A DNA stretch of 64,000 nt, taken from NCBI RefSeq assembly GCF_002563695.1, contig NZ_PDJI01000004.1:3658001-3722000 (forward strand). Reading direction: 5' to 3'. The DNA is from Georgenia soli (GTDB lineage: Bacteria; Actinomycetota; Actinomycetes; Actinomycetales; Actinomycetaceae). Positions within the stretch are counted from its first letter, which is position 1. Each line of letters starts with the position of its first letter. The notes beneath the pieces were generated by a model. The model was not told the origin of the DNA. It did not search any database and worked only from the letters and a program-made list of their open reading frames with translations. Below, one piece after another: positions 11,594 to 33,333 of this stretch. The position numbers and the translations under genes were made by a program.

Positions 11594-11669
11594 GCGAGTA
11601 CTTCCGATAGGGCACGAGGTGTGCGGGAGCGTCAGCTGGCGACGCGGGCAGGGACCAGGCGCACGCACC

Positions 11670-11687
11670 ATCTGTCACATCTGTAAC
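11670..11687 (-). promoter_or_regulatory. 9-bp tandem repeat upstream of the amidase gene
   Basis: ATCTGTCAC is followed directly by ATCTGTAAC, giving two TGT(C/A)AC(A) motifs 9 bp apart, 77 bp upstream of the amidase ATG. Tandem sites of this kind resemble those reported for the MtrA response regulator, which controls wall hydrolases in actinobacteria. The identification is tentative. Confidence 0.35.
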
Positions 11688-14380: not shown

Positions 14381-16711
14381 TCAGGAGGCCGAGGTGTTCG
14401 CGGTCGCCCGGTTTTCGCGCTCCCGCAGCGCCCGCCACACGCGTTCCGGCGTGAGCGGCAGCTCGCGGACGGTCACGCCGGTCGCCGCGGCGACAGCAGC
14501 CGCCAGAGCGGGGGCGGTACAGAGCAGCGCCCCCTCGCTTATTCCCTTGGCGCCGAAGGGGCCGGGACCGTCGCCGTTCTCGATCATGTCGGTGAAGAGC
14601 TCCGCCGGGACGTCCTTGGTCGTCGGGATGCGGTAGTCGAGGGCACCGAGGTTGATGATTCGGCCCGCATCGTCGAGGACGATGTTTTCCATGAGGGAGT
14701 GTCCGAGGCCCATGATGGCTGCGCCCTCGTCCTGGCTCTCGACCTGCAGCGGGTTGAGTGCCTTGCCGACGTCGGAGACGGTGACGTGCTTGTGGATGAG
14801 GATCTCGCCGGTCTCGTTGTCGACTTCTAGCTCGAACGCGGTGCAGTTGAACTCGAAGAACGCCGGCGTGCCCCCGAGAGGGTGGTCGGGCATGTGCGGT
14901 TTTCGCATGCGGCCGTTGCCGATGAGTTCCCCGTTCCATCTGCCGAGGCCGACCTGGACGAACTCGGCGATCGGGTGCCGCCCGTCCGGTAGGACGACAT
15001 GCCCGCCTTCGACCCGCACGTCCTCCTCGGTCAGGCCGTGCAGTTCGGCGGCGAACTCGCGCAGCTGGGTGTGGATGTCCTGGCATGCTCGAGTGATCGC
15101 GTTTCCCATGAAGACAGTGGACCGGCTTGCCGAGGTCTGGAGGTCGAAGGGGACGACGGAGGTGTCGCCCATGACGACGGTGACTTTCTCCAGCGGGGCG
15201 CCGAGGGCGTCCGCGGCGAGCTGGGCGAAGATCGTCCGGGCTCCCTGGCCCATGTCGGAGGTACCTGCGTAGACGATGACGCTTCCGTCGGCGAGGAGGC
15301 GCACCGTGGAGTTCGACAAGCCGGTCGTCGCGCCGGACTTGATGCCCACCGCGATGCCTCGCCCCCGGCCTTCCGGCAGGGGCTTGTCCCAGCCGACGAG
15401 CTCAGCAGCGCGGCGGAGTGAGGCGGGCCAGTCGCCGTCGGCCGGGATGTCCCCACGAACGATCTCATCGCCGCGGCCGGCGAGGTTGCGCAGCCGGATG
15501 GCGAGTCCGTCGATCCCGAGTTCGCGTGCGGCGGCGTCCATCTGGGACTCGACCGCCCAGATCATCTGCGGCGTGCCGAAGCCGCGGAAGGCGGTGGAGG
15601 GGGTGGTGTGGGACAGGACGGCGCGGGCGTCGATGCGGGCTGCGGGGACCCGGTAAGGGCCGCACGCGAGGTAGGCGCTCTTTGTCATGACGCGCTCGGC
15701 GATGTCGGCGTAGGCGCCGATGAGGTAGCTGGCGTCGATGTCCTGGAAGACGAGGTCGCCCTGGCTGGTGAACCCGGTCCTCACGTGCACCTCGCACGCG
15801 GCGCGGCGGACCGCCTGGAAGGTCTCTTCCAGGGTCAGGACAAGACGGCACGGGCGTGCCGTGCGCATGGAGAGGTAGATGACCACGGGTTCGAGCTTGG
15901 GGTTCTGCTTGCCACCGAAGCCGCCGCCGGGGTCGGGGGCGAAGACGCGCACCTGCGTGAGCGGCAGTCCGAACAGGGCCGCCATCATCTTCTGCAGCAG
16001 GTAGGGGTGCTGGACGGGGCTCCACAGCCGGATGCCGTCGGCGTCTGCGTGGGCGATGAACCCGTGCGGTTCGATCGCGAAGTGCGTGACCATCGGGAAG
16101 GTGTAGGTGTTCTCGACGACGAGGTCCGCCTGCGCCGTGTCGACGGCGTCGCGGTCCCAGCCGTAGCGACGCTCCTTGAGAATGTTCGTGCTCGCGAAGG
16201 GGTCGCCGTCGGCCCGGATCCCCGGGCCCTGGACGAGGGGTGCGTCGAGCGCGAGAGCGGCGGCCACCGTCGTGACGGCCGGGAGGACCTCGTGCTCGAC
16301 GACGACGAGGGAGGCGGCGAGCTCGGCCGCCTCCTTCGTCTCTGCGGCGACGGCGGCGACCGGTTCGCCGTGGTAGCTCGTGATGCCGTCCGCGAGGATC
16401 GGCCGGTCCTGGTACGCGGGCCCGAAGCGCGGCATGGGGCTGGGGAGATCCGCCGGGGTGATGATGTCGACGACGCCCGGCACGGCGAGGGCCGTCGAGG
16501 TGTCGATGTGCAGGATTCTGGCCCGGGCAGCGTCGATCGTGACGAGCTTGACGTGCAGCATGCCGTCGAGCTTGATGTCGGCGAGGAACTCCTGGCTGCC
16601 CGTGACGCGTTCGCGCCCGCCCAGACGCCGGGCCGCTGTGCCGACGCTGAGGCCGTCGCTGACTGCGCTGCCTGTGCCGGTGCTGATGCCCGCACCGCCG
16701 TGCACGCTCAT
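14381..16711 (-). CDS. Molybdenum hydroxylase, molybdopterin-binding large subunit (cluster 1)
   Basis: 776-residue catalytic subunit of the xanthine oxidase family, hydroxylating a carbon of an aromatic or N-heterocycle with water as oxygen donor. Seen are the Ald_Xan_dh_C start (GTAARRLGGRERVTGSQEFL), the moco motif PGGGFGGKQNPK, the active-site loop AFRGFG (residues 374-379), SDMGQGARTIFAQ and the catalytic Glu in KGISEG near the C-terminus. AFRGFG.PQ is the xanthine dehydrogenase/hydroxybenzoyl-CoA reductase type of loop, unlike the second cluster. The ATG overlaps the TGA of the [2Fe-2S] gene. It is the last gene of a nine-gene operon with phosphotransferase, phosphatase and aldehyde dehydrogenase. 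Substrate unknown. Confidence 0.9.
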   Translation of the reverse strand: MSVHGGAGISTGTGSAVSDGLSVGTAARRLGGRERVTGSQEFLADIKLDGMLHVKLVTIDAARARILHIDTSTALAVPGVVDIITPADLPSPMPRFGPAYQDRPILADGITSYHGEPVAAVAAETKEAAELAASLVVVEHEVLPAVTTVAAALALDAPLVQGPGIRADGDPFASTNILKERRYGWDRDAVDTAQADLVVENTYTFPMVTHFAIEPHGFIAHADADGIRLWSPVQHPYLLQKMMAALFGLPLTQVRVFAPDPGGGFGGKQNPKLEPVVIYLSMRTARPCRLVLTLEETFQAVRRAACEVHVRTGFTSQGDLVFQDIDASYLIGAYADIAERVMTKSAYLACGPYRVPAARIDARAVLSHTTPSTAFRGFGTPQMIWAVESQMDAAARELGIDGLAIRLRNLAGRGDEIVRGDIPADGDWPASLRRAAELVGWDKPLPEGRGRGIAVGIKSGATTGLSNSTVRLLADGSVIVYAGTSDMGQGARTIFAQLAADALGAPLEKVTVVMGDTSVVPFDLQTSASRSTVFMGNAITRACQDIHTQLREFAAELHGLTEEDVRVEGGHVVLPDGRHPIAEFVQVGLGRWNGELIGNGRMRKPHMPDHPLGGTPAFFEFNCTAFELEVDNETGEILIHKHVTVSDVGKALNPLQVESQDEGAAIMGLGHSLMENIVLDDAGRIINLGALDYRIPTTKDVPAELFTDMIENGDGPGPFGAKGISEGALLCTAPALAAAVAAATGVTVRELPLTPERVWRALRERENRATANTSAS

Positions 16712-17277
16712 CGTCCGGTCTCCTTCGGCCCGTGCGTGGCGGCGTCGGCGATCGCCCCTTCCCAGTTGGTGGCAAGTATGGGGACGGAGTCCCGGCGGCG
16801 GGCCGTGACGGTTCCGTCGGCCACCGCGCGCACGGCGGCGAACATTCGCGCGTACCCGGCGCAGCGGCACAGGTTGCCGGACAGGCCCTCCCTGATCTCC
16901 TCCTCGCTCGGGTCGGGGTTCTCGGTCAGAAGTGCCTCGGCGGACATGAGCATGCCGGGGATGCAGAAGCCGCACTGGACGGCGCCGTGGTCGAGGAAGG
17001 CCTGCTGGAGCGGGCTCAGCTCGCCGTCGGCGGCGAGGGCCTCGACGGTGCGCACGTCGGCGCCGTCGGCCTCGACGGCGAGCACGAGGCAGGAGTTCAC
17101 TGTGCGACCGTCCATGGTGACGGTGCAGGCGCCGCACTCGCCGACCGCGCAGCACTCCTTGGTCCCGGGGAGCCCGCACTCGTCGCGCAGCGCGTCGAGG
17201 AGCGCCCGGTTCGCTGGCACGTCGACGATCCTGTCCGTGCCGTTGACGGTCATCGTGATGCGGTGCATGTCGCTCAT
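16708..17277 (-). CDS. Molybdenum hydroxylase [2Fe-2S] subunit (cluster 1)
   Basis: 189-residue electron-transfer subunit with both iron-sulfur clusters of the family: a plant-ferredoxin-type motif CCAVGECGACTV with a distal NSC, and the helical motif CGFCIPGM followed by NLCRCAGY. It carries electrons from the molybdenum centre to the FAD subunit. At 189 residues it is about 25 longer than usual, ending in a non-conserved tail after the second cluster. AGGAGGAG precedes the ATG. It overlaps both neighbours by 4 bp (ATGA), so FAD, FeS and Mo subunits are tightly coupled. Confidence 0.93.
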   Translation of the reverse strand: MSDMHRITMTVNGTDRIVDVPANRALLDALRDECGLPGTKECCAVGECGACTVTMDGRTVNSCLVLAVEADGADVRTVEALAADGELSPLQQAFLDHGAVQCGFCIPGMLMSAEALLTENPDPSEEEIREGLSGNLCRCAGYARMFAAVRAVADGTVTARRRDSVPILATNWEGAIADAATHGPKETGR

Positions 17278-18131
17278 CTCTCCTCCTGCGTGGCGAGGTT
17301 CGCCTGAGCTCGGTGCAGTGCTCGCCGGAGGAGCACCCCCACCATGGCGCGCCGGTACTCGGCGCTGGCACGTACGTCGCTGATGGGGGTGGCGCGGTCC
17401 GCGACCGCGTCGAGGGCCGCGGCCCGGTCCGCCGGGTCGGCGCCTTGGGACAGCGCACCGCTGTCGTCGCGCACCACGACCGGTACGGGGGCGACGGCGC
17501 CGAGGACGAACGTCACGCCGAGCTTGTCGGCCATGCAGCTGACGTTGATGGTCGCAAGGTCGACCCCGCGGCGGCGCGTCATCCGCTCGAACGCGGCGCC
17601 GTAGGGCCTGCTAGGGACCGGCAGCCGGACCCGCGTGACGAGCTCACCGCGGCCCAGGTCGGTGCGGCGGTTGCCCTGGATGAAGTCGACGACCGCGATC
17701 TCGCGGTCCCCGTCCGGTCCCTGAACGGTGAGGGCGGCGTCGTGCATCACCAGGACGGGAGCGGTGTCGGCGGCGGGGGAGGCGTTGCAGACGTTGCCGG
17801 CGAGGGTGGCGCGATGGCGGATCTGTGCGGAGCCGACGACGCTCGCCGCCTCGACGAGGGCGGGGAAGTGCTTCCGGACGGCGTCGTGGAGCAGCACGTC
17901 GCTGAGCGGCGTCGTCGCAGAGACGCTGACGGTCCCGTTGTCGACGGCGACCGCCGGAGCGAGCTCGATCACCCGTTTGATGTCGACGACGATGCCGGGT
18001 CGGATCTTGCCGTCGCGCAGCCCGACCGTGAGGTCGGTGCCGCCCGCGAGGACGCGGGCGTTCTCGTGAGCGGCCAGCAGCGCCACGGCCTCGTCGAGCC
18101 GTTGGGGGCGGGCGTAGTCGAACGGCAGCAC
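17274..18131 (-). CDS. Molybdenum hydroxylase FAD-binding subunit (cluster 1)
   Basis: 285-residue CoxM/XdhB-type flavoprotein. The FAD pyrophosphate motif VLAGGTDLTVGL occurs at about residues 27-38 and the second FAD motif AQIRHRATLAGNVCNASPAAD near 102-122. Electrons pass from here to the final acceptor. The GTG start lies 3 bp after the aldehyde dehydrogenase stop and lacks a good ribosome site, suggesting translational coupling. The second motif keeps the TLAGN sequence of typical quinoline/aldehyde-type oxidoreductases, whereas the cox-type cluster has TLGG. Confidence 0.9.
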   Translation of the reverse strand: MLPFDYARPQRLDEAVALLAAHENARVLAGGTDLTVGLRDGKIRPGIVVDIKRVIELAPAVAVDNGTVSVSATTPLSDVLLHDAVRKHFPALVEAASVVGSAQIRHRATLAGNVCNASPAADTAPVLVMHDAALTVQGPDGDREIAVVDFIQGNRRTDLGRGELVTRVRLPVPSRPYGAAFERMTRRRGVDLATINVSCMADKLGVTFVLGAVAPVPVVVRDDSGALSQGADPADRAAALDAVADRATPISDVRASAEYRRAMVGVLLRRALHRAQANLATQEER

Positions 18132-18134
18132 CGG

Positions 18135-19547
18135 TTACTCTGTGGCTGGTCCGGGCGCAGGTGTCCCTGCGCCGACGTAGTACGTGCGTGCGTTGGTGAA
18201 CTCGAGCGCGCCGGCCTCGCCGAGCTCGCGACCGTAGCCGCTGCGTCGTGTCCCGCCGAAGGGCAGGCGCGGGTCGGAGGCGACGACGGCGTTGACGAAC
18301 ATCGCGCCGGAGGTGATCCTTTTGCCGACGGCGAGGGCCCGGTTCGGGTCGGCGCTCCACACGCTGGCCCCTAGGCCGTAGGTGGTGGCGTCGGCGACCT
18401 GGGCGGCCTGCTCGTCGTCGCGCACGGCGACCACGGCCGCGACCGGGCCGAAGGTCTCCTGCTGCATGACCGGCATGTCCAGGTCGACGTCTGCCAGGAC
18501 GGTGGGGGCGAACCAGGCGCCCGGACGCTCGAGCCGGGCGCCGCCGGAGCGGACGGTGGCGCCCATGGCGACGGAGTCGGTGACCTGGCGCTCGAGTGCG
18601 GTGGCGAGGTCCTCGCGCGCGAGGGGACCGACGTTGGTTCCCGGGTCCGACGGGTCGCCGACGGTGAGAGCGTCGACGGCGTCGGCGTACCGGTCGAGGA
18701 ACTCGGCCACGACGGCCTCGTGGACGATGAACCGTTTGGCGGCCAGGCAGCTCTGCCCGGAGTTGATGAAGCGGGCCTTGACCGCCGCGGCGACGACGGT
18801 GTCGAGGTCGGCGTCGTCGAGGACGACGAAGGGGTCGGAGCCGCCGAGCTCGAGGAGGCTCTTCTTGATGTGCCGGCCGGCTTCTGCGGCGACGGCGGAC
18901 CCCGCACGTTCGCTGCCGGTGAGTGTCACGGCGGCGACCCGGTCGTCGGCCAGGAGGGAGGCGGTCGTGGCTGGTACGTCGTCCTCGGCGATGACCAGCG
19001 TGCGGAGGACGCCGTCGGGCAGGCCTGCGTCCCGGACGAGCTGCTCGATGGCGAGCGCGCAGCCTGTGACGTTGGGCGAATGCTTGAGCAGGGCTGTGTT
19101 GCCGGCCAGCAGCGTGGGCGCGGCGAAGCGCAGCACCTGCCAGTACGGGAAGTTCCACGGCATGATCGCGAGCACGACGCCGAGCGGTTCGTAGGAGACC
19201 CAGCTGCGCTCGGCGTCCGTCGTCACCTCTCGGTCTGCGAGGAAACCGGGGCCGTGCTCGGCGTAGTAGTCGCAGACCCACGCGCACTTGTCGACCTCGG
19301 CAAGCGCCTCGCCGATCGGCTTGCCCATCTCGTTGACGGCCAGGCGGGCGAGCTCTTCACGCCGGCTGCGGATCGCCGCACCCAACGCCTTCACGCGGCT
19401 GGCCCGCTCGGCGATGTCGAGGGCGGCCCAGGCCGGCTGAGCGGCGTGGACCTCGGCGACGGCGGCCTCGACCTGCTGAGGTGTGAAGGCTTTGTAGGTG
19501 GCGAGGGTTTCCCCGGTCGCCGGGTTGACGGTGGTGATCTGCGGCAT
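18135..19547 (-). CDS. NAD(P)-dependent succinate-semialdehyde dehydrogenase-like enzyme
   Basis: 470-residue aldehyde dehydrogenase. Seen are MPWNFPYWQV, the catalytic Glu233 in LLELGGSDPF and the nucleophile Cys267 in FINSGQSCLAAKRF; NPATGETLATY opens the protein as in GabD/YneI-type enzymes. It should oxidise succinate semialdehyde or a related short aldehyde acid to the acid. In this operon it would complete degradation of a ring-opened intermediate and feed succinate to the TCA cycle. GAGGAG lies 5 bp ahead of the ATG. Glutarate semialdehyde or another carboxy-aldehyde is an equal alternative; sequence alone does not decide. Confidence 0.88.
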   Translation of the reverse strand: MPQITTVNPATGETLATYKAFTPQQVEAAVAEVHAAQPAWAALDIAERASRVKALGAAIRSRREELARLAVNEMGKPIGEALAEVDKCAWVCDYYAEHGPGFLADREVTTDAERSWVSYEPLGVVLAIMPWNFPYWQVLRFAAPTLLAGNTALLKHSPNVTGCALAIEQLVRDAGLPDGVLRTLVIAEDDVPATTASLLADDRVAAVTLTGSERAGSAVAAEAGRHIKKSLLELGGSDPFVVLDDADLDTVVAAAVKARFINSGQSCLAAKRFIVHEAVVAEFLDRYADAVDALTVGDPSDPGTNVGPLAREDLATALERQVTDSVAMGATVRSGGARLERPGAWFAPTVLADVDLDMPVMQQETFGPVAAVVAVRDDEQAAQVADATTYGLGASVWSADPNRALAVGKRITSGAMFVNAVVASDPRLPFGGTRRSGYGRELGEAGALEFTNARTYYVGAGTPAPGPATE

Positions 19548-19573
19548 GTCGCTCCTCAGGGTGGTGCGTCAGG

Positions 19574-20248
19574 TCAGGGTGCGGCGGCGAGCACGGCCGT
19601 GCGAACGGACCGGTCGGGTTGGATCTCGAGGACCAGGCCCGCCACCCACGGGGGTTCGCCCGTGTCCTCACCGAGCTCGGCGAGTGCGACGGCCCGCAGC
19701 ACGGGGGAGTGGGTGACCGCGACCGTGAGGCCGGGGCGGGGGCGGTCGGCGAGGCTGCCGGCGAAGGCGCGGATGCGGCGGGCGACGGTCGCGGCGTCGT
19801 CACCGGGCGGGGAGGCGTGGTGCAGCCACCACCCGATGCGGTCCGGTGCGGCGAGGAAGCCGGCGAAGAACGGTACGCGCGCGGCGCCCTGCTCGTCGAG
19901 GCCGTCGAGCTGTTCCGCCAGCGCCGTCACGGAGGAGACCATGTTGACCCGCTGCCCGGCGACGTACAGGTCGGGGTTGCGCAGTGCGAACGCGGTGGCG
20001 GGTCCGTCGACTTCGGCTCCGGCCTCCCGGGCACCGGTGGCGATGGACTCGGCGGTCTCGCGCGTGCGCCGGGTCTCGCCGGTGAGGACGGAGATCTTCT
20101 CGGGTGACTCGGCGGCGAGACGGCGGCCCACCTCTGCCGCGCGCTCGCGGCCCGCGGGGGTGACTGGCACGTCGCCCCGGTGGGACTCGACCTCGCCGTG
20201 CCGCAGCAGCAGGAGTCGCTGCGGCACGGCAGCTGTGTCGTCAGGCAT
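19574..20248 (-). CDS. Histidine phosphatase family protein
   Basis: 224-residue phosphoglycerate-mutase-like phosphatase. The N-terminal LLLLRHGEVESHRG carries the catalytic R16-H17-G18 motif; a second conserved His is in TVAVTHSPVLRAVAL. The proton-donor region lies between them. It likely hydrolyses a phosphate monoester. Its place inside an operon that begins with a phosphotransferase resembling phenylphosphate synthase is striking: it could remove the phosphate from a pathway intermediate. It overlaps the ABM gene by 8 bp and precedes the aldehyde dehydrogenase by 26 bp. A general metabolite-repair role is the alternative. Confidence 0.83.
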   Translation of the reverse strand: MPDDTAAVPQRLLLLRHGEVESHRGDVPVTPAGRERAAEVGRRLAAESPEKISVLTGETRRTRETAESIATGAREAGAEVDGPATAFALRNPDLYVAGQRVNMVSSVTALAEQLDGLDEQGAARVPFFAGFLAAPDRIGWWLHHASPPGDDAATVARRIRAFAGSLADRPRPGLTVAVTHSPVLRAVALAELGEDTGEPPWVAGLVLEIQPDRSVRTAVLAAAP

Positions 20249-20534
20249 CGATCGTCTCGTAGGTGGCCACCTCGCGCTTCTCCAGGTAGTCGATCGCGTA
20301 CCCGAAGACGTGCTTCTGGAAGTGGTCGGTGTTCTTGTGGTCCTCGTAGGCCTGCGGGGAGGTGTACTGCTCGTAGAGGAAGAACTTCGTGGGGTCCTCC
20401 GGGTCCACCTGCGCCTGGTAGTAGAGGTTCCCGGGTTCCTCCCGCGACAGGGGCGTCATCGTCTTGATGACGTCGACGATGCGGTGCTCCTCGCCCTGCT
20501 TGGCCTTCCAGATGGCGGCGACGACGAATGCCAT
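20241..20534 (-). CDS. ABM-fold (antibiotic biosynthesis monooxygenase-like) small protein
   Basis: 97-residue protein with the dimeric alpha/beta-barrel pattern of the ABM family: an initial beta strand (MAFVVAAIWKAK), a helix with LSREEPGNLYYQ, then FFLYEQYTSPQAYEDHKNTDHFQKHVF. YEQ(W/Y).S..A...H..T.HF is the hallmark. Members include cofactorless quinone-forming monooxygenases and also non-enzymatic or heme-related relatives. In this operon an oxygenation of a hydroxylated ring or a quinone-related step is possible. ATG 20534 follows AAAGGA; the frame continues upstream but into the FAH gene. Confidence 0.8.
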   Translation of the reverse strand: MAFVVAAIWKAKQGEEHRIVDVIKTMTPLSREEPGNLYYQAQVDPEDPTKFFLYEQYTSPQAYEDHKNTDHFQKHVFGYAIDYLEKREVATYETIDA

Positions 20535-20568
20535 GACTTCGGTGTCCTTTCGTAGGGGTTGCTGATTT

Positions 20569-21402
20569 TCAGGGTTTGTGGCCGACACGGTTCCGGAGGA
20601 CGCCGATGCCTTCGGCCTCCATCTCGATGAGGTCGCCGGGACTGAGCCAGCGGTCGAGCTCAAGGCCTGAGCCGCCGGCGGCCGTGCCCGAGCCCAGGAC
20701 CTCGCCTGGGCGCAGTGTGAGGTCGCGGGAGGTGTACTCGATCATGGTGGCGAAGGTGTGGTGCATGTTCGCCGTCGTGTCCGACCCCCACGTCTCGCCG
20801 TTGACGCGCACGGTGAGGGTGAGGTCGGTGACGTCGAGCTCGTCGGCGGTGACGATGCAGGGACCGAGGACGTTGGACCCGTCCCAGTCCTTGGCCTTAC
20901 CGGGGCCCATGCCGACCGGGAGCTCCCGGCGCTGCGTGTCACGTGCTGACATGTCGTTCCAGATGGTGTACCCGAAGATGTGCTCGGCGGCCCGGTCCGC
21001 CGGGATGTTCCGGCCTGGCCGGCCGATGACCGCCGCCAATTCCAGCTCGTGGTCGAGCTGGTCGCTGTAGGAGGGCCACGGGATCTCCTCGTCGGGTCCT
21101 ATGACGGTGTCGGGCAGGCCCTTGTAGCAGGCCGGGACGTCGTACCACTCGGCGGGGATCTCCCGGCCGAGGATGCGGTACGCGTTCTTCAGGTGCCCCT
21201 CGAAGGCGAGGAAATCGCGCAGCGTGCGTGGGCGGAGCGGTGCGAGGAGCCCGGCGTCGGGGACGGGCCGGGTCGTCCCGACGGGGGCACCGGCCTCGAT
21301 GAAGGCGACCATGTCGCCGTCGAAGCCGGCGTCGAGCACCGTGTCGGCGTCCAGGATCCCGACGCGCGGGGTGCTGCCGGTCGTGTAGGTCACGTACTTC
21401 AT
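20569..21402 (-). CDS. Fumarylacetoacetate hydrolase (FAH)-family protein
   Basis: 277-residue FAH-superfamily protein. The family core is seen as HELELAAVIGRPGRNI (metal-binding E-x-E), FGYTIWNDMSARDTQ, NVLGPCIVTADEL, the MIEYTSRDLTLRPGEVL segment and GSGTAAGGSG. Members cleave C-C bonds of beta-diketo acids, hydrate 2-oxo-dienoates or decarboxylate oxo-acids during aromatic catabolism. Here it probably acts on the ring-opened product. ATG 21402 is preceded by AAGGGC; upstream in-frame sequence belongs to the neighbouring gene. It lies 11 bp after the ATP-grasp subunit gene. Confidence 0.88.
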   Translation of the reverse strand: MKYVTYTTGSTPRVGILDADTVLDAGFDGDMVAFIEAGAPVGTTRPVPDAGLLAPLRPRTLRDFLAFEGHLKNAYRILGREIPAEWYDVPACYKGLPDTVIGPDEEIPWPSYSDQLDHELELAAVIGRPGRNIPADRAAEHIFGYTIWNDMSARDTQRRELPVGMGPGKAKDWDGSNVLGPCIVTADELDVTDLTLTVRVNGETWGSDTTANMHHTFATMIEYTSRDLTLRPGEVLGSGTAAGGSGLELDRWLSPGDLIEMEAEGIGVLRNRVGHKP

Positions 21403-21413
21403 GTCGCCCTTCC

Positions 21414-22235
21414 CTAGACCGTCGTGATGGGGCGGGACTGGAGCAGGAACAGGACGCCGTTGTCGTCGATCGCCCATTCGATGTCCTGCGGGCACCCGTG
21501 CAGGTTTTCCAGCTGCTGGCCCATCGCGGCGAGCTCGGCCGACTCCTCCGGGCCCAGGACCGGCTCGGAAACGATCTTGCTTCGCTTGATCGTGCCCTTA
21601 CGGTCCAGGACGTAGTGGTCGGGCGTCATCTCCCCGTTGACGACGTTCTCACCGAGGCCTAGGGCGGCCTCGACAACCATCCGGTCCTTGCGCTGGTGGA
21701 CCGGGTCGACGGTGAACATGACCCCTGACTTCTTCGAGTCGACCATCTGCTGGACGACGACCGCCATGGCCACGTCCTCGAGCGAGCCCTTCTCCTCCCG
21801 GTAGAAGACGGCTCGGTCGGTGAAGAAGGAGAGCCAGCACTCCACGACCTTGTCCAGCACCGTGTCGAGGCCGTCGACGTTGAGGAACGTCTCCTGCTGA
21901 CCGGCGTAGCTGGCCCCCTCGGAGTCCTCGGCGCACGCGGACGACCGGACGGCGACCAGCCCGGTCAGGTCGTTGTACTGCTCGGTGACCAGCTCCACCG
22001 GTGGCCTCGCCGCGGCGACGATCGACCGGGCGCCGGCCATGTCCTTGGCCCTGGCGCGTTCCCGCAGCGCATCCTCGTCCACGGCCGCGGAGAACGCGGC
22101 CGAGGTGATGATGAACCCGGGCGGTACCGGGAGGCCCTCCGATGTCATCGTGGCGAGCGAGGCGCCCTTCCCGCCGCTCAGGGCCACCTCTCGGGCCCGC
22201 GGGTCGGTGAAGGGCAGCACCAGTGGTTCGGTCAC
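21414..22235 (-). CDS. PEP-synthase-like ATP-grasp subunit (resembles phenylphosphate synthase subunit B)
   Basis: 273-residue protein equal to the ATP-binding (PPDK_N) third of PEP synthase: SGGKGASLATM (residues 20-30, Lys23), VAVRSSACAEDSEGASYAGQ, GVMFTVDPV, EAALGLGENVVNGEMTPD and the terminal DIEW...LQSRPI. It should bind ATP and phosphorylate the swivelling His domain, which is carried by the separate gene just upstream (17-bp gap). Neither gene has the C-terminal PEP/pyruvate barrel, so pyruvate is unlikely to be the acceptor. This split layout matches phenylphosphate synthase of Thauera (about 70- and 40-kDa subunits), which makes phenylphosphate, AMP and Pi from phenol and ATP. Confidence 0.85.
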   Translation of the reverse strand: MTEPLVLPFTDPRAREVALSGGKGASLATMTSEGLPVPPGFIITSAAFSAAVDEDALRERARAKDMAGARSIVAAARPPVELVTEQYNDLTGLVAVRSSACAEDSEGASYAGQQETFLNVDGLDTVLDKVVECWLSFFTDRAVFYREEKGSLEDVAMAVVVQQMVDSKKSGVMFTVDPVHQRKDRMVVEAALGLGENVVNGEMTPDHYVLDRKGTIKRSKIVSEPVLGPEESAELAAMGQQLENLHGCPQDIEWAIDDNGVLFLLQSRPITTV

Positions 22236-22252
22236 GGCTGTCGTCCTCCTTC

Positions 22253-24043
22253 TCAGATGTGGGCGGAGAGGTCGCGGACGGCGCGGTGCTCGGAGGAGCG
22301 CTCGAAGCCCTCGAGGATCTCCACCTGGCCGGTCGAGCCGTTGACCCTGATGCGGTCACCGGTCTTGATACGGCGCGTCGCGTCAGAGGTTCCGACGACG
22401 GCGGGGATCGAGAACTCCCGGGAGACCACCGCGGGGTGGGAGGCCATGCCGCCGGCGTCCGTGACGAGGCCGCCGATCTTGGTGAACAGGACGACCCAGG
22501 CCGGCGAGGTCATGCGGCACACGACGATCTCGCGCTTCTGGACCTGGTCGAACTCCTCTGGAGAGACCACGACGCGGGCGGTGCCCTCGACGACCCCGGA
22601 CGACGCGGGCAACCCGGTGACGAGGTCCTCCGACTCCGGAGGCTTGCGCTCGAGCTTCTCGGGGAACGCCCACAGCGACCAGTAGGGGAAGGCGACCTGC
22701 TCCGGGTCGGCCGTGCCCACCCAGTCACGCGGGCGGATCTCGTAGGCGTCCTCACGTGCGTCCCGACGGTCGGAGACGAGCTCGGCGGCGTCGCCGGGGT
22801 AGCCGCCGGCCATGACGGCGCGCAGCTCGTTGTACCGCAGGTACATCACGTCCTCCGGGTCCGTGAGCACCCCCGCCTCGACAAGCTTGCGGCCGATCGC
22901 GACGAGCACGATGCGCACGCGCGCGTTCGTGCCCTGGTCGATGTAGAAGTGATGGTCCGGGGTGAGCGGGTTCATCTTCAGGCTCAGCTCGAGCGCGGAG
23001 GTCAGTCTGTCTCGCGCCTCGCCCTCGGGGACGCCCTCCATGACCTCGCGCTTCGCCGCCTCGAGGTCCTCGGCGACGGCCTTGATCTCGGCGGGGAAGT
23101 CGTAGTCGTTCTCCAGATACCCGCGGACCGCCTCGACGATCGGGGCCGGGTTCTCCCGCCACGTCTTGAAGGAGAACTCGTGAGCCCACATGGACTTGTA
23201 GCCGTAGACCTTCTGGTACGGCTCAAGCTGGTCGGCGATGAAGGCGCGGCCGGCCTCAGTTTCCTTCAGCGCGGCGAGGATGTCCGTGGCGGTCGCCTTC
23301 TCGAAGGCCTCCGCTACAGGGCCGCCGTCGGCCTTGATCTTCTCCTTCATCTTCCACAGCTCGTTGATCGAGTCCCAGTTGCGGTTCTCGGTCGAGCTCT
23401 GCAGCCGGCCCATCAGGGCGGAATGGTCACCCTCTCCCTTGGCCTCCGCGATCGCCGCGTTAAGCGCCGTCGTGGAGGAGAACTGGGCGAAGTTAAGCAC
23501 CCAGTGGATCTGCCAGTGCCGGTCGTGCATGTCGATGACGTCCTCGAGGAGGATCGCCAGCTCCAGCAGGCTCGCGCCGTCGTGGTCGTAGTTGTCGAAC
23601 CGCTCGAAGTTGCGCTCCATCTCGGGACGAAGACGCTCGCGCCACCACACGAGGAAGTTGTCGGCGTAGTAGGGGAGCGTCCACCCCAGGTACGCGCCGA
23701 TCTGGTTCGGATACTCCGGGTCCAGCGGGACACGCGGGGTGTAGCGCGCGCCGAACTCGTTGCCCTCGGCGTGCAGGCCCGCCTTGGCCGGCACCGCGGC
23801 GGTGTACACGTACCCGTTGATGATCTTCATGATCCAGTCGGAGGCGAACGGGGTGCCGAACCGCCGGAACATGTAGTCGCACTTGAGCCACCAGCCCCCG
23901 ATGTCCGCGTACATCGGCGAGATCGGGTTGGGGATGTGCAGGTCGTCGTGCACCCAGAAGAGGTCCTTCTGGCCGTCCTCCCACTCGACGGGGAAGTCGT
24001 CGTCACCGAAGAACGTCGGGACAGAGGGCGTGCTGTCGGTCAT
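22253..24043 (-). CDS. PEP-synthase-like His-domain subunit (resembles phenylphosphate synthase subunit A)
   Basis: 596-residue protein, first gene of the operon. The C-terminal 110 residues are a PEP-utilizing mobile (swivelling) domain with VTDAGGMASHPAVVSREF; His536 is the predicted phosphorylated residue (usual motif SHAA). The preceding 480 residues are Trp/Tyr-rich and helical (for example MYADIGGWWLKCDYMFRRFG) and probably bind the acceptor substrate, as the central domain does in rifampin phosphotransferase and phenylphosphate synthase. Partner: the ATP-grasp subunit 17 bp downstream. GGAGTGG precedes the ATG. The divergent FadR-type regulator probably controls the promoter. The acceptor (phenol, hydroxypyridine or other) cannot be read from sequence. 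Confidence 0.83.
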   Translation of the reverse strand: MTDSTPSVPTFFGDDDFPVEWEDGQKDLFWVHDDLHIPNPISPMYADIGGWWLKCDYMFRRFGTPFASDWIMKIINGYVYTAAVPAKAGLHAEGNEFGARYTPRVPLDPEYPNQIGAYLGWTLPYYADNFLVWWRERLRPEMERNFERFDNYDHDGASLLELAILLEDVIDMHDRHWQIHWVLNFAQFSSTTALNAAIAEAKGEGDHSALMGRLQSSTENRNWDSINELWKMKEKIKADGGPVAEAFEKATATDILAALKETEAGRAFIADQLEPYQKVYGYKSMWAHEFSFKTWRENPAPIVEAVRGYLENDYDFPAEIKAVAEDLEAAKREVMEGVPEGEARDRLTSALELSLKMNPLTPDHHFYIDQGTNARVRIVLVAIGRKLVEAGVLTDPEDVMYLRYNELRAVMAGGYPGDAAELVSDRRDAREDAYEIRPRDWVGTADPEQVAFPYWSLWAFPEKLERKPPESEDLVTGLPASSGVVEGTARVVVSPEEFDQVQKREIVVCRMTSPAWVVLFTKIGGLVTDAGGMASHPAVVSREFSIPAVVGTSDATRRIKTGDRIRVNGSTGQVEILEGFERSSEHRAVRDLSAHI

Positions 24044-24095: not shown

Positions 24096-24116
24096 CGATA
24101 TGCGAATATCGATGAT
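24096..24116 (-). promoter_or_regulatory. Candidate GntR operator, phosphotransferase side
   Basis: On the minus strand 24103-24116 reads ATCATCGATATTCG, one base different from the plus-strand site at 24195-24208. It overlaps an inverted repeat CGATAT/ATATCG (24096-24111). It lies 53 bp upstream of the operon's first ATG. Confidence 0.5.
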
Positions 24117-24194: not shown

Positions 24195-24208
24195 ATCATC
24201 GATAATCG
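24195..24208 (+). promoter_or_regulatory. Candidate GntR operator, regulator side
   Basis: ATCATCGATAATCG contains the near-palindrome ATCATCGATAAT (10 of 12 positions symmetric) and sits 46 bp upstream of the GntR ATG. The facing copy at 24103-24116 lies near the divergent operon. Paired sites fit autoregulation plus control of the operon. Confidence 0.5.
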
Positions 24209-24253: not shown

Positions 24254-24931
24254 ATGGAACAGCCCATCGTGCGCACCGTGCTGCGCGAGGAGATCAAGGC
24301 TCGAATCATCGAGCGAATCGTCGACGGCACGTACGGGCCGGGGGACCGGATCGTCGAGAGCCAGCTTGCGAAGGAGTTCGGCACGAGCCAGGCGCCCGTG
24401 CGCGAGGCCCTGCGTGACCTCGAGGGACAGCACCTCATCGAGAGCAGGCCGCACAAGGGCGCTCGCGTGCGCGAGCTGTCGCCGGAGCGGCTCTTCCAGG
24501 TCTATCCCGTCCGGGCCGCCCTGGAGGAGCTGGCGGCGCAGGAGGCGGCGTCCAGGATGACCGACGACGTGCTCGACGCTCTCGCCGTGGAGGTCGAGGC
24601 CATGCGCGAGGCCGCGAGCGACAACGACCCGCGCGCACAGATGGTCCACGACACGAGGTTCCACGAGATCATCGTCGAGACGGCCGGCAACGAGGTCCTC
24701 CTGGACACCTGGCGGGCCCTGCGAGTGGAGACCGGCACGCTGGTCAGCGTCATCAGGTCCGAGTGGGACCTGCACATGGTCTGCGAGATGCACCGCCCGG
24801 TCCTGCAGGCGCTCCGGCTGCAGGACCCGGCCCTCGCCGGCTCCGAGGCGCGCGCCCACATCGAGTTCTTCGGGAACCTGGTCCGTCGGCACTCCGATCC
24901 GGTCGGCGCCAACGCTCCCGCCCGGCCGTAA
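24254..24931 (+). CDS. GntR-family regulator, FadR/FCD subgroup
   Basis: 225-residue regulator with an N-terminal winged helix (KARIIERIVDGTYGPGDRIVESQLAKEFG then SQAPVREALRDLEGQHLIE) and a C-terminal all-helical FCD ligand domain with the metal-binding histidine in DTRFHEIIVETAGN and a later H in MCEMHRPVL. FCD regulators sense carboxylic acids or related catabolites. GGGGGAAG precedes the ATG. It is divergent from the phosphotransferase-molybdenum hydroxylase operon and starts the plus-strand series, so it likely represses both until the substrate or an acid intermediate appears. Confidence 0.9.
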   Translation: MEQPIVRTVLREEIKARIIERIVDGTYGPGDRIVESQLAKEFGTSQAPVREALRDLEGQHLIESRPHKGARVRELSPERLFQVYPVRAALEELAAQEAASRMTDDVLDALAVEVEAMREAASDNDPRAQMVHDTRFHEIIVETAGNEVLLDTWRALRVETGTLVSVIRSEWDLHMVCEMHRPVLQALRLQDPALAGSEARAHIEFFGNLVRRHSDPVGANAPARP

Positions 24932-24972: not shown

Positions 24973-25839
24973 TTGGAGAAGGTCACCGACAACGTCTTCG
25001 TCGAGACGAAGGTCCGAGGAAGCAACCCCGCCTACGTCGTCACCTCCGACGGGACCGTCGTCATCGACACCCCGCAGCTGCCGACCAGAGCGGTCGCCAT
25101 GAGGAAGGAGGTGGAGAGTTGGGGGCCCGTCCGGTACGTCATCAACACCGAGCATCACGTCGACCACATCTTCGGCAACTACTACTTCCGCGGTGCGGGG
25201 ACCGTCGTCCACCACCAGGGCGTGTATGACAACTTCATGACGGTCTACCCCGAGCTGGACCCTTTCGAGTACGCCCGGGAAGCGCTGCCGGACGACCCGG
25301 GCGGTGAGGAGCTCTTCCCGGACAGGGACGAGTACTACCGCGACCCCAACAAGGGCCAGGTCGTCTTCACAGGCGACCTGACCCTGCGGGTCGGCAACCA
25401 CACCTTCAACCTCCTGCACACCCCTGGTCACACACCGGGCCAGATCGCCGTCCACGTCCCGGAGGAGCGCGTCGTCTTCACCGGAGACACGATCTTCAAC
25501 GACTGTCAGACGTGGCTCATGACGTCCGACGTGGACGAGTGGCTGAGGTCCCTGGACCGGATCAGGTCGCTCGACGTCGACCATGTCGTCCCCGGGCACG
25601 GTCCCGTGACAACCCTCGGCTACGTCAACAAGCAGCGGGCCATCCTCATGGAGTGGAAGAGCGCCGTGGCCGACGCCATCGCCCAGGGCTGGAGCCGTGA
25701 GGAGACGATCGAACGGGTGAACTTCGCGGACCGGTTCCCTGTCGACGTCGGCCAGGAGTACATGATGGACTACATCCAGTCCCTCAACGCCGGATCCCTG
25801 TACGACAAGCTCATCGCGGTCCCGGCGAAGGTCTACTAG
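24973..25839 (+). CDS. Metallo-beta-lactamase-fold hydrolase
   Basis: 288-residue MBL-fold protein. Metal motifs are NTEHHVDHIFGN (E60, H62, D64, H65), HTPGHTPGQ, FTGDTIFND and VPGHGPV. The first His of H-x-H-x-D-H is Glu, a variant seen in several MBL subgroups, which should change the Zn1 site. Likely a lactonase, thioesterase or phosphodiesterase-type hydrolase acting in the adjacent catabolic pathway. TTG 24973 is chosen: GAGAGG lies 8 bases ahead and the homologous fold starts there (KVTDNVFVE). It follows the GntR gene by 41 bp and may be co-transcribed. The C-terminal extension (LMEWKSAVADAIAQGWS onward) matches the MBL hydrolases with a helical tail. Confidence 0.8.
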   Translation: MEKVTDNVFVETKVRGSNPAYVVTSDGTVVIDTPQLPTRAVAMRKEVESWGPVRYVINTEHHVDHIFGNYYFRGAGTVVHHQGVYDNFMTVYPELDPFEYAREALPDDPGGEELFPDRDEYYRDPNKGQVVFTGDLTLRVGNHTFNLLHTPGHTPGQIAVHVPEERVVFTGDTIFNDCQTWLMTSDVDEWLRSLDRIRSLDVDHVVPGHGPVTTLGYVNKQRAILMEWKSAVADAIAQGWSREETIERVNFADRFPVDVGQEYMMDYIQSLNAGSLYDKLIAVPAKVY

Positions 25840-25942
25840 GTGCCGGTCCGGGGCCGCGTCCCCTTCCCGGATCCGCGACATGATCGAGGCGCCGGTGCGC
25901 GGTTCGGTGGACGCAGATGCCGCGGGTCGGCATGCTCGGGCC

Positions 25943-26896
25943 ATGGAGCCAACGGAGGTCTTCGCCAGCCCGTCCGCCGTGACGACCGCTCTGGAGACCA
26001 CCGGCTACCTCGCCGACCCGGGTCTGGCCACCGTCACGTACCTCGCGCACCAGCTCTCCCGGCCGCTGCTGCTGGAGGGCGAGCCCGGCACCGGCAAGAC
26101 GGCCCTGGCCGAGGCGCTCGCCGAGGTGCTCGGCCGGCCCCTGATCCGCCTGCAGTGCTACGAGGGCATCGACGCCACCCAGGCGCTGTACGACTGGGAC
26201 TTCCCGCGCCAGATCCTCCACCTGCGCGCCGTGGAGGCGCTCGCCGCCGCCCGCGCGCGGGCCGTCCCCGTCAACGGCCGGAGCGGCGACGACCTCACCG
26301 ATAGCGCGCCCGCCCCGCCCACCGCCCAGGACCTCGAGGCCGAGCTGTTCGACGAGCGGTTCCTGCTGGCCCGGCCCGTCCTGCGCGCGTTGCGCGAGAG
26401 CCCCTGCGTGCTCCTCGTCGACGAGATCGACCGCGCCGACGACGAGTTCGAGGCTTTCCTCCTCGAGGTCCTGTCCACGTGGCAGGTGACCATCCCGGAG
26501 CTCGGCACGGTCGCCGCCGCGCGGCCACCGTTCGTGGTGCTGACCTCCAACCGCACCCGCGAGCTGCACGACGCCCTCAAGCGTCGCTGCCTCTACCACT
26601 GGATCGACCACCCGGGCCTGGCACGCGAGCTGGCGATCGTGCGGACGCGCCTGCCGGGGGTCGACCCCGCCCTGTGCGAGCAGGTCGTCAACCTGGTCCA
26701 GGCACTGCGAGGCCAGGGCGAGCTCATCAAGGCGCCGGGCGTCGCCGAGACGCTCGACTGGGCCCGCGCGCTCGCGGCGCTCGGCACCAGCGAGGTCGAC
26801 GTGGAGTCGGCGGCCCGGACCCTCGGGACGGCCGTGAAGTACCGGGAGGACGCCGAACGGGTCCGCCAGCTCCTCGACAAGATGCTCACCCGGTAG
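25943..26896 (+). CDS. MoxR-type AAA+ ATPase, CoxD-like
   Basis: 317-residue AAA+ ATPase with Walker A GEPGTGKT (residues 46-53), Walker B VLLVDEIDRAD, sensor 1 VLTSNRTREL and the lid. MoxR ATPases pair with von Willebrand A proteins as metallo-enzyme chaperones; CoxD works in insertion of the active-site metal of CO dehydrogenase-type enzymes. The next two genes are coxE- and xdhC-like, and coxSLMG follow, so this role is well supported. The start is uncertain: ATG 25943 gives the usual family N-terminus; an in-frame ATG at 25880 would add 21 residues, and neither has a clear ribosome site. Confidence 0.85.
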   Translation: MEPTEVFASPSAVTTALETTGYLADPGLATVTYLAHQLSRPLLLEGEPGTGKTALAEALAEVLGRPLIRLQCYEGIDATQALYDWDFPRQILHLRAVEALAAARARAVPVNGRSGDDLTDSAPAPPTAQDLEAELFDERFLLARPVLRALRESPCVLLVDEIDRADDEFEAFLLEVLSTWQVTIPELGTVAAARPPFVVLTSNRTRELHDALKRRCLYHWIDHPGLARELAIVRTRLPGVDPALCEQVVNLVQALRGQGELIKAPGVAETLDWARALAALGTSEVDVESAARTLGTAVKYREDAERVRQLLDKMLTR

Positions 26897-26902
26897 GCCG
26901 GC

Positions 26903-27997
26903 ATGTGGACCGCGACCGAGACCCTGCTGGGCCTGGCCCGTGCCCTGCGCGCCGCCGGGCTGCCCGTCACCGCCGACCGGGAACGCTCCTTCCTCCAGGC
27001 CGCGGCCCTCGTCACCCTCGACGACCGCTCCGGCGTGTACTGGGCCGGCCGCGCCACGATGACCGCCGACCCCGCCGACGCCCCCGTCTACGACCAGGTC
27101 TTCACCGCCTGGTTCGGCGGCACCGCCATGCACCTGACCCCGCGCCCGCGTCCGCCGTCGTCCACGACGCCGCAGGCGTCCCTGACCCCGACCGCCGACG
27201 GCGAGGGCGGGGCGGGGGAGCCGCTCTCCGCCGCCGCGTCGGGGACCGAGGTGCTCCGCCACCGCGACGTCGCCACGCTCGCCGCCGCCGAACGGGCCCA
27301 GCTCGCCCGACTCTTCGCCACCCTGCGGCCCCGGCCGCCGGCTCGCCGCGCCCACCGGCACGTGCCCGCGCGCACCGGCGCCGTCGACGGGCGGGCCACC
27401 CTGCGGGCGCAGCTGCGCCGCATGGGCGAGCCCGGCCCTGTGCACCACCGGCGCCGGTCGACCACGCCCCGCCGGGTGGTCGTCCTGCTCGACGTCTCCG
27501 GCTCGATGGCCCCCTACGCCGACTCGCTGCTGCGCCTGGCCCACACCATGGTGCGCGCGGCCCCGCGCACCACCGAGGTCTTCACCCTCGGCACGCGGCT
27601 GACCCGGGTGAGCGCCGCCCTGGGCGAGCGCGACGTCGAGCGCGCCCTCGCCGCGGCCGGCGAGGCCGTCCCGGACTGGTCCGGCGGGACCCGCCTGGGG
27701 GAGACCCTCGGCGCGTTCCTGGACCGGTGGGGCCGGCGGGGCACCGCGCGCCAGGCCGTCGTCGTCATCTGCTCGGACGGCTGGGAGCGGCAGGGCCCGG
27801 ACCTGCTCGCCGAGCAGATGCGCCGCCTGCACGCTCTCGCGCACACGGTCGTGTGGGCGAACCCGCACCGCGGAAGGCCGGGCTACCGGCCGGTCCAGGC
27901 CGGTATCGTCGCGGCCCTGCCGCACGTCGACGTCTTCGTCCCCGGCCACTCGCTGGCCAGTTTCACCGAGCTGCTGGAGGTGGTGGGCAGTGCGTGA
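26903..27997 (+). CDS. VWA-domain protein, CoxE-like
   Basis: 364-residue CoxE-family protein. The C-terminal von Willebrand A domain has the MIDAS motif LLDVSGSM, a TRLGE segment supplying the MIDAS threonine, and CSDGWERQG. The N-terminal part (TLLGLARALRAAGLPVTADRERSFL) is CoxE-typical, then a Pro/Thr/Ala-rich linker. CoxE acts with the MoxR ATPase CoxD in maturation of the bimetallic or molybdenum active site. It starts 6 bp after the ATPase gene and overlaps the xdhC-like gene by 8 bp. Confidence 0.86.
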   Translation: MWTATETLLGLARALRAAGLPVTADRERSFLQAAALVTLDDRSGVYWAGRATMTADPADAPVYDQVFTAWFGGTAMHLTPRPRPPSSTTPQASLTPTADGEGGAGEPLSAAASGTEVLRHRDVATLAAAERAQLARLFATLRPRPPARRAHRHVPARTGAVDGRATLRAQLRRMGEPGPVHHRRRSTTPRRVVVLLDVSGSMAPYADSLLRLAHTMVRAAPRTTEVFTLGTRLTRVSAALGERDVERALAAAGEAVPDWSGGTRLGETLGAFLDRWGRRGTARQAVVVICSDGWERQGPDLLAEQMRRLHALAHTVVWANPHRGRPGYRPVQAGIVAALPHVDVFVPGHSLASFTELLEVVGSA

Positions 27998-29327: not shown

Positions 29328-29362
29328 CCGAGGTGACGACGACGTCCCTACCTGGAGGATCC

Positions 29363-29848
29363 ATGACCCGCATCAGCGTGACTGTCGACGGCACCCGGTA
29401 CACCGACGAGGTCGAACCCAGGACGCTCCTGGTCCACTACCTGCGTGAGACGCTCGGGAAGACCGGGACGGTGATCGGGTGCGACACCTCGAACTGCGGC
29501 GCCTGCACCGTCCACCTCGACGGCCGCTCCGTGAAGTCCTGCAACGTCCTCGCCGTCCAGGCCGACGGGCGCGAGGTCACCACCATCGAGGGGCTCGCCA
29601 CCGACGGCGAGCTCCACCCCGTCCAGCAGGCGTTCCACGACTGCCACGCCCTGCAGTGCGGCTACTGCACGCCCGGCATGATCATGCAGGCCGCCGACCT
29701 GATCGCCCACACCGAGGACCTCACCGAGGAGAAGATCCGCGAGGGCATGGAGGGCAACCTCTGCCGGTGCACCGGCTACCACAACATCGTCAAGGCCGTG
29801 CAGCAGGCGGCCGCCCGCCCCGTGCCCGTCATGGAGGTGCAGCCGTGA
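29363..29848 (+). CDS. CoxS-like [2Fe-2S] subunit of carbon monoxide dehydrogenase-type hydroxylase
   Basis: 161-residue iron-sulfur subunit, the usual CoxS length. It has [21 protein letters not shown] for the first cluster and CGYCTPGM with [12 protein letters not shown] for the second. It relays electrons from the molybdenum subunit to CoxM. GGAGG precedes ATG 29363 by 5 bp; an upstream in-frame codon adds ten non-conserved residues. Its TGA overlaps the GTG of the large subunit (GTGA). Confidence 0.92.
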
Positions 29849-33329: not shown

Positions 33330-33333
33330 GCCG

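Follow-up and report, generated by a model that had tools for sequence, protein, structure and literature searches.

A split dikinase conserved beside molybdenum hydroxylases, and a putative phosphorylation-linked catabolic operon in Georgenia soli

The stretch of Georgenia soli DNA analyzed here (64,000 nucleotides of contig NZ_PDJI01000004.1; hereafter, the window) contains nine open reading frames (ORFs) that follow one another head to tail along the minus strand, from 24043 down to 14381. The first two encode a two-component dikinase, with a swivel-His and acceptor-domain subunit (hereafter, PEPU) and a separate ATP-grasp subunit (hereafter, PPDK_N), and the last three encode a molybdenum (Mo) hydroxylase. 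The coupling of this kinase to Mo hydroxylases is conserved across three phyla and strongly supported by gene co-occurrence. On balance, we lean towards a GntR-controlled catabolic operon that couples the phosphorylation of a small molecule to its Mo-dependent oxidation.

A nine-gene operon headed by a split dikinase

The family assignments of the nine genes are Pfam scores above the gathering thresholds. In order from PEPU downward, the genes are as follows.

22253..24043, minus strand: PEPU, swivel-His and acceptor-domain subunit of the two-component dikinase, 596 aa (PEP-utilizers, 84.9 bits)
21414..22235, minus strand: PPDK_N, separate ATP-grasp subunit, 273 aa (PF01326, 254 bits)
20569..21402, minus strand: FAH-family hydrolase/isomerase, 277 aa (PF01557, FAA_hydrolase, 206 bits)
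20241..20534, minus strand: ABM-domain protein, LsrG-like, 97 aa (PF03992, 61 bits)
19574..20248, minus strand: histidine phosphatase (HisP), branch 1, 224 aa (PF00300, His_Phos_1, 61 bits; RHG and THS motifs)
18135..19547, minus strand: aldehyde dehydrogenase, SSADH-like, 470 aa (PF00171, Aldedh, 451 bits)
17274..18131, minus strand: Mo hydroxylase FAD subunit, 285 aa (PF00941, FAD_binding_5; PF03450, CO_deh_flav_C)
16708..17277, minus strand: Mo hydroxylase [2Fe-2S] subunit, 189 aa (PF00111 and PF01799, Fer2/Fer2_2)
14381..16711, minus strand: molybdopterin (Mo) subunit, lineage "type A", 776 aa (PF01315, PF02738 and PF20256, MoCoBD_1/2)

The spacings from PEPU downward are 17, 11, 34, -8, 26, 3, -4 and -4 bp, the final one assuming that the Mo subunit starts at the ATG at 16711, which gives 776 aa. 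An earlier reading of the window, made from the sequence and its ORFs (hereafter, the sequence-only reading), had described a nine-gene minus-strand run with small gaps, His536 and the same families, and the ORFs, Pfam matches and spacings of -8 to +34 bp agree with it. "SSADH" is a best-family label (NF006915, 523 bits, under its cut-off of 730), and the best PDB match of the ABM protein is a weak one to LsrG (2gff, 30 bits). The closest solved structures to the FAH protein are of the HpcE/HpaG type (6iym and 1gtt).

The swivel His of PEPU is residue 536, within TDAGGMASH, and matches the T/SxxGGxxxH motif of two-component dikinases. The residue at position -2 is Ala, so there is no regulatory Thr two residues before the catalytic His; in HpeH this position is Met (PMC12167813). 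As the sequence-only reading had proposed, the architecture is split in the manner of PpsAB, with the ATP-grasp and swivel/acceptor domains carried by two adjacent genes. The model of PEPU (mean pLDDT 79) has a swivel domain and an acceptor domain of the rifampin phosphotransferase (RPH) type, without a PEP/pyruvate domain. Its full-length structural matches at E ≤ 0.001 were RPH entries only, and PEP-synthase structures matched the swivel part only. Many aromatic residues are invariant across the PEPU family, whose members are generically annotated as "PEP-utilizing enzyme". PPDK_N is 36% identical to PpsB and had phmmer matches to RPH and PEP synthase structures.

These matches rule out a PEP synthase or plain PPDK, as the acceptor domain is of the RPH type and PEP-synthase structures cover only the swivel. 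Membership among the rifampin phosphotransferases was likewise rejected: RIF_Ptrans_rph scored 140 and 199 bits against a cut-off of 999, and RPH, which inactivates an antibiotic, unites ATP-grasp, RIF-binding and His domains in one chain, whereas here the ATP-grasp domain has its own gene in a catabolic setting. Aligned over its full length, PEPU is 27% identical both to PpsA of a ppsAB-ppcABGD cluster and to a cre-like protein. As these two are 43% identical to each other, PEPU represents a separate subfamily. Judged from its acceptor fold and split chains, the PEPU/PPDK_N pair probably works like PpsAB, CreHI and HpeHI, yet is distinct from them.

The kinase and the Mo hydroxylase occur together in three phyla

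We compared 82 loci, comprising the best 80 of 242 related loci, a Thermomicrobium roseum plasmid and the window; many of them are on short contigs. One or more of the three genes for Mo-hydroxylase subunits lies beside PEPU in 46 of the 53 loci with at least 6 kb of downstream sequence. The genomes of the remaining seven (L012, L013, L014, L016, L018, L021 and L042) encode a type A orthologue elsewhere (59-62%; the Mo subunits ranking next reach 31-38%).

Of 251 Chloroflexota genomes drawn, 24 contain PEPU (E ≤ 1e-100) and 17 a Mo subunit (E ≤ 1e-150), 12 of these 17 having type A (at least 63% identity). All 12 type A genomes fall within the 24 PEPU genomes and carry the Mo subunit on the PEPU contig (Fisher p 3e-14 across the 251 genomes, uncorrected for relatedness); the other five Mo genomes have 40-42% paralogues only, and no PEPU. 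Among the 12 other PEPU genomes, the operon of five encodes a different Mo hydroxylase, a further six are Thermogemmatispora-type genomes with the same second Mo kind (five matched to fetched loci by handle or coordinates), and the contig ends in the last (G371). Counting the second Mo type, 23 of the 24 PEPU Chloroflexota have a Mo hydroxylase in the cluster.

PEPU was present in six of 236 Actinomycetota genomes, all with a Mo hydroxylase in the cluster, which is type A in the window genome and the second type, in the operon, in five genomes of one family. The Mo subunit (E ≤ 1e-130) was found in three of the 236, namely the window genome and two PEPU-free genomes with 39-40% paralogues. With both draws pooled, a Mo hydroxylase belongs to the PEPU cluster in 29 of 30 carriers, and in the 30th the contig ends. 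The sequence-only reading had named a kinase pair occurring mostly without the hydroxylase as the observation that should count against it, and the opposite was found. These draws rule out PEPU as a chance neighbour of the Mo hydroxylase. Among 337 Alphaproteobacteria there were six matches at E ≤ 1e-25, the centre genome at 1019 bits, which is the sole match at family level, and five others at no more than 147 bits; two of the five are of the PpsAB type, with no window-like Mo genes within 18 kb of these two.

The distribution of the operon is patchy. The 596-aa PEPU was detected in none of 148 other relatives, eight of the same genus, at E ≤ 1e-60; despite this absence, a Georgenia yuyongxinii protein is 89% identical to it.

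Two lineages of Mo hydroxylase serve the same kinase

The MoCoBD, FAD and [2Fe-2S] subunits all show motifs of the xanthine dehydrogenase (XDH) family. The Mo subunit retains GGGFGG and GAKGISE (720-726), the Glu of the latter being presumably the catalytic Glu of the family. Its best solved relatives are 4-hydroxybenzoyl-CoA reductase (4-HBCR; 1rm6, 329 bits) and quinoline 2-oxidoreductase (1t3q, 231 bits), both acting on rings, followed by CO dehydrogenase, xanthine dehydrogenase and aldehyde oxidoreductase. With these and other enzymes of the XDH family, the window enzyme has in common the three-subunit architecture and conserved Mo-domain motifs. The Mo subunit misses all listed NCBIfam cut-offs (for example, 436 against 995 bits for 4-HBCR alpha), and by these cut-offs no characterised orthologue was found.

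In a tree of 54 Mo-subunit sequences (49 different), type A (27 rows) and type B (16 rows) form separate 100/100 clades; loci outside the tree were typed by similarity. On a quick tree of the 82 PEPU proteins (40 labelled A, 15 labelled B and 27 unlabelled), five changes of Mo type are needed, four of them forced by supported branches. One change may be spurious, as the label of L088, set by score, is doubtful: the first of its Mo subunits belongs to neither clade and its type A match lies at a contig end. The trees suggest that the same kinase is served by two separate Mo lineages, and because the same kind of enzyme was re-recruited, a functional need is indicated rather than hitchhiking.

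A palindromic box marks the cluster

A palindromic box precedes PEPU, and another lies before a divergently encoded GntR gene.

24105..24116, minus strand: palindromic box ATCATCGATATT before PEPU, probable GntR operator
24195..24206, plus strand: second box ATCATCGATAAT before the divergent GntR gene
24254..24931, plus strand: GntR/FCD regulator, divergent from PEPU (PF00392, PF07729)

The 210-bp intergene between PEPU and GntR holds two copies of ATNATCGATWNT, with 0.01 expected per shuffled window, and these are its only two sites in the whole 4.27-Mb genome. Across the 82 loci, 85 box sites were found in 55 loci, compared with 0-3 in ten simulations. The box lies -160 to +350 bp from the PEPU start in 33 loci (by gene calls made here) and, in addition, 78-92 bp before the PEPU match in L013, L014 and L009, where the start was mis-called. 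It stands upstream of PEPU in Actinomycetota, Chloroflexota and Rhodobacteraceae, and the GntR gene recurs in 54 of the 82 loci. We infer that the GntR protein binds the box and would control the operon.

The box is also found near the start of a transaldolase gene in 15 of the 82 loci, often shared with a divergent PEPU. Other genes with the box near their starts encode GntR (12 loci), a branched-chain-type ABC permease (6), a membrane protein with weak similarity to DUF1097 (5), another permease (3), Tm-1/UPF0261 (3), transketolase N (2), an SDR (2), a Gfo/Idh protein (2), and ALDH, MDR-ADH and metallo-beta-lactamase-fold (MBL) proteins (1 each).

The Tm-1-like (UPF0261) family c16 was observed in 15 of the 82 loci and the PEP-hydrolase-like family c23 in 10 (for example, L007:6493-8596). 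The box precedes c16 in three loci.

A branch that lacks the ATP-grasp gene and often carries another kinase

The ATP-grasp gene is absent from a mostly chloroflexotal branch, where a hitherto unrecognised P-loop kinase family of the PEPCK/HprK fold with GGESNHGKS (hereafter, c5; L076:12470-13357 and 27 other loci) is often in the locus. Counted by ORF cluster over the 82 loci, as for all gene counts below, PPDK_N (c4) occurs in 31 loci and c5 in 28, and never both; L013 and L014 additionally have PPDK_N by tblastn. Within the 251 Chloroflexota genomes, c5 was found only together with the PEPU/Mo cluster (11/11).

The idea of c5 as a simple replacement for PPDK_N is weakened by further dikinase genes. 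A PPDK_N domain lies in a long frame on the PEPU contig in 10 of 12 Chloroflexota genomes, and where checked (G160, G161, G338 and G362) it belongs to a fused PPDK-like protein (c13), so that G338 was dropped as a locus with both c5 and PPDK_N. G160 also has a further split PpsAB-like pair (L131:3954-7809; 38% to PpsB and 27% to PpsA), 31-35 kb from the PEPU cluster.

Accessory genes differ between the branches

HisP was found in 21 of the 82 loci (20 of the 31 PPDK_N loci and none of the 28 c5 loci), FAH in 21 (20 and one, respectively) and ABM in 19 (17 and none). Of the partners that the sequence-only reading expected to recur with the kinase pair, the Mo hydroxylase did so, and the phosphatase is not universal. 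The MBL cluster c6 occurs in 26 loci.

"Cyclase" hydrolases (PF04199) are encoded in 15 of the 31 PPDK_N loci, so ring opening need not be oxygenolytic. For the Thermomicrobium roseum PF04199 protein, the best solved relatives are isatin hydrolase and kynurenine formamidase, both weak matches. The ring-cleavage step that the sequence-only reading found missing has candidates in these relatives, and none in the window operon.

A transaldolase (c7) was detected in 11 of the 12 Chloroflexota genomes with PEPU and type A Mo, and in 10 of the 239 remaining genomes of that draw; these 10 PEPU-free genomes weaken its standing as a pathway-specific gene. In four chloroflexotal loci (L061, L069, L070 and L047), genes for a Peripla_BP_4 sugar-type transporter and an AP_endonuc_2 TIM-barrel protein (c27) adjoin PEPU, some with a DeoC-family aldolase (c49) beside it. 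These neighbours hint at sugar-like carbon flow.

Neighbouring genes in the window

Downstream of GntR, the plus strand carries an MBL gene, candidate Mo-enzyme maturation genes and, directly after them, a second XDH-family Mo cluster (29333-34179).

24973..25839, plus strand: MBL hydrolase (PF00753)
25880-26896, plus strand: CoxD-like AAA protein (PF07728)
26903-27997, plus strand: CoxE-like VWA protein (PF05762)
27990-29267, plus strand: XdhC/CoxI (PF02625, PF13478)
29333-29848, plus strand: second Mo cluster, [2Fe-2S] subunit
29845-32469, plus strand: second Mo cluster, Mo subunit
32466-33329, plus strand: second Mo cluster, FAD subunit
33334-34179, plus strand: second Mo cluster, CoxG

The MBL gene is possibly co-transcribed with GntR (41-bp gap). 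The CoxD/CoxE/XdhC set (25880..29267), in which we take the AAA gene to be CoxD, may serve the Mo hydroxylase of the operon. The Mo subunit of the second cluster (29845-32469) lacks the CSFR motif, which we take to be specific to CO dehydrogenase. Elsewhere in the window, an 845-aa protein (9134-11671) has an Amidase_2 domain and three cell-wall-binding CWB2 repeats.

Discussion

In the pathway that we narrowly favor, PPDK_N would bind ATP and phosphorylate His536 of PEPU by the dikinase mechanism of its homologues PEP synthase and PpsAB, yielding AMP and Pi. The swivel domain would then pass the phosphoryl group to the hydroxyl of a small molecule in the RPH-type acceptor domain, and this phosphorylated molecule, or one formed from it, would be oxidised by the three-subunit Mo hydroxylase. 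The histidine phosphatase would later remove the phosphate, and FAH and the aldehyde dehydrogenase (in relatives, also the "cyclase"-type hydrolase) would process the opened carbon chain. The small-molecule acceptor and the order of steps are both putative, and a hydroxylated (N-hetero)aromatic substrate has about an even chance. The overall interpretation of the sequence-only reading is partly supported: its split architecture and the kinase-hydroxylase linkage were borne out, the acceptor fold is of the RPH type, and its aromatic or hydroxypyridine substrate, step order and finish to succinate stay conjectural.

The concept is less novel than first thought, with precedents in Cre, Hpe and, by its reported partner genes, HpdA. 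The latter is the 3-hydroxypyridine dehydrogenase of Ensifer adhaerens HP1, which initiates the catabolism of this hydroxy-N-heterocycle (Wang et al. 2020, AEM, doi 10.1128/AEM.01313-20). The enzyme is reportedly an XDH-family Mo hydroxylase. A PEP-utilizing protein and a PPDK are said to take part in its hydroxylase activity, and it reportedly has a separate SRPBCC subunit, with cleavage of the 2,5-dihydroxypyridine (2,5-DHP) ring to follow. On this description, HpdA shares with the window operon a Mo hydroxylase with PEP-utilizing and PPDK partner genes; it differs in that no SRPBCC/CoxG gene is among the nine, CoxG being found only in the second Mo cluster. The Cre route uses a P450 and a phosphatase. 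Its kinase is found in PMC12167813/PMC9618137, and these sources describe for the Hpe route a ring hydroxyl that is phosphorylated, a hard step and removal of the phosphate. A CoxG homologue is mentioned in PMC11962113.

PpsAB, CreHI and HpeHI phosphorylate small phenols (PMC12167813). With the window pair they share a swivel-His/acceptor chain and a separate ATP-grasp chain, the T/SxxGGxxxH motif, an RPH-like fold and, for the window pair as a proposal, phosphorylation of a hydroxyl before the hard step and (for Hpe) later dephosphorylation. They are about 38-46% identical among themselves, with PEPU outside the group at 27%. The partner step is a Mo hydroxylase here and a carboxylase or P450 there. 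In Agrobacterium sp. DW-1, 3-hydroxypyridine is degraded via 2,5-DHP (PMC6525221). The HpdA-type cluster was absent from the two records opened (one of 7 Agrobacterium plasmid records and one Ensifer record). No gene of the 2,5-DHP route is among the nine genes or the annotated recurrent neighbours (the search was not genome-wide), and a strict hydroxypyridine/2,5-DHP route is unsupported by the genes seen. A literature search found no paper on the PEPU/Mo cluster, with most subscription papers lying outside its scope.

Several points weigh against the favored pathway. Known PEPU carriers formed the centres of the draws, which partly overlap the fetched loci (e.g., G158, G159, G161, sources of L022, L023), the co-occurrence counts ignore relatedness, and the clusters may move as a unit. 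PEPU is only a remote relative of the phenol kinases characterised so far (27% identity, where PpsA and the cre-like protein share 43%), and since HisP is in none of the c5 loci, dephosphorylation there would have to proceed by other means. The box-linked transaldolase, transketolase and Gfo/Idh genes of the relatives were not anticipated by the aromatic reading and agree poorly with an aromatic substrate. These sugar-type enzymes near the box, and relatives of the FAH protein that act on deoxy-sugar acids (including L-2,4-diketo-3-deoxyrhamnonate hydrolase), argue against a purely aromatic reading. It is possible, if on the whole doubtful, that the same kinase-then-Mo logic acts on a sugar-like, polyol or enolic substrate, with the Mo enzyme as an aldehyde- or alcohol-level oxidoreductase followed by aldolase/transaldolase, FAH and aldehyde dehydrogenase; oxidative pentose or inositol-type routes are analogies. 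The boxes at SDR, MDR-ADH and ALDH genes and the near-constant presence of c7 (11/12) are in line with this, as are the resemblance of c17 to IolM (216 bits, cut-off 450) and, weakly, of c27 to IolE (33 bits). However, c7 may be a general enzyme given its presence in 10 of 239 other Chloroflexota genomes, no box lies outside the PEPU/GntR intergene in the window genome, ring enzymes make up the two nearest solved Mo relatives, and the weak solved relatives of the single Thermomicrobium roseum PF04199 protein are isatin hydrolase and kynurenine formamidase.

Were the PEPU/PPDK pair to energise or mature the Mo enzyme, with a protein or cofactor rather than a pathway substrate as its target, close linkage to both lineages of Mo hydroxylase would also be expected, and the partner genes of HpdA are reportedly involved in hydroxylase activity. 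We regard this as improbable, because PEPU is modelled with an RPH-type acceptor domain and its family has many invariant aromatic residues, known maturation proteins (XdhC, CoxD/E-like) already stand beside the operon, and the characterised split relatives act on small phenols (PMC12167813). A chance neighbour of the Mo operon, whether a rifamycin-type drug phosphotransferase or the relic of a PEP synthase, would fit the RPH entries as sole full-length structural matches and the generic annotation, but it is hardly credible: the kinase-Mo linkage (29 of 30 PEPU genomes in two draws) contradicts it, PEP-synthase structures match the swivel part only, and a shared box marks the cluster.

Within the preferred reading of phosphorylation-linked Mo oxidation, a more far-reaching version seems to us rather unlikely. 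It envisages an aerobic pathway, so far undescribed, that is widespread among Actinomycetota, Chloroflexota and marine Rhodobacteraceae. A third split-dikinase subfamily would there obligately feed a lineage-swapped Mo hydroxylase, ring opening would be hydrolytic, and in the mostly chloroflexotal branch c5 would have taken the place of the ATP-grasp donor, phosphorylating the swivel His, or would recover the phosphate afterwards. Should c5 be confirmed as the donor, swivel-His enzymes would gain a phosphoryl donor of a new kind.

The known cases of aerobic catabolism that uses phosphorylation as a handle are a handful of phenols and, reportedly, one hydroxypyridine. A conserved cassette of kinase and Mo hydroxylase, with its own box and in at least three phyla, would turn it from a curiosity into a general route. 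It would also offer one reason why the substrates of some orphan XDH-family hydroxylases may be hard to assign, namely that these enzymes may in truth act on a phosphate ester.

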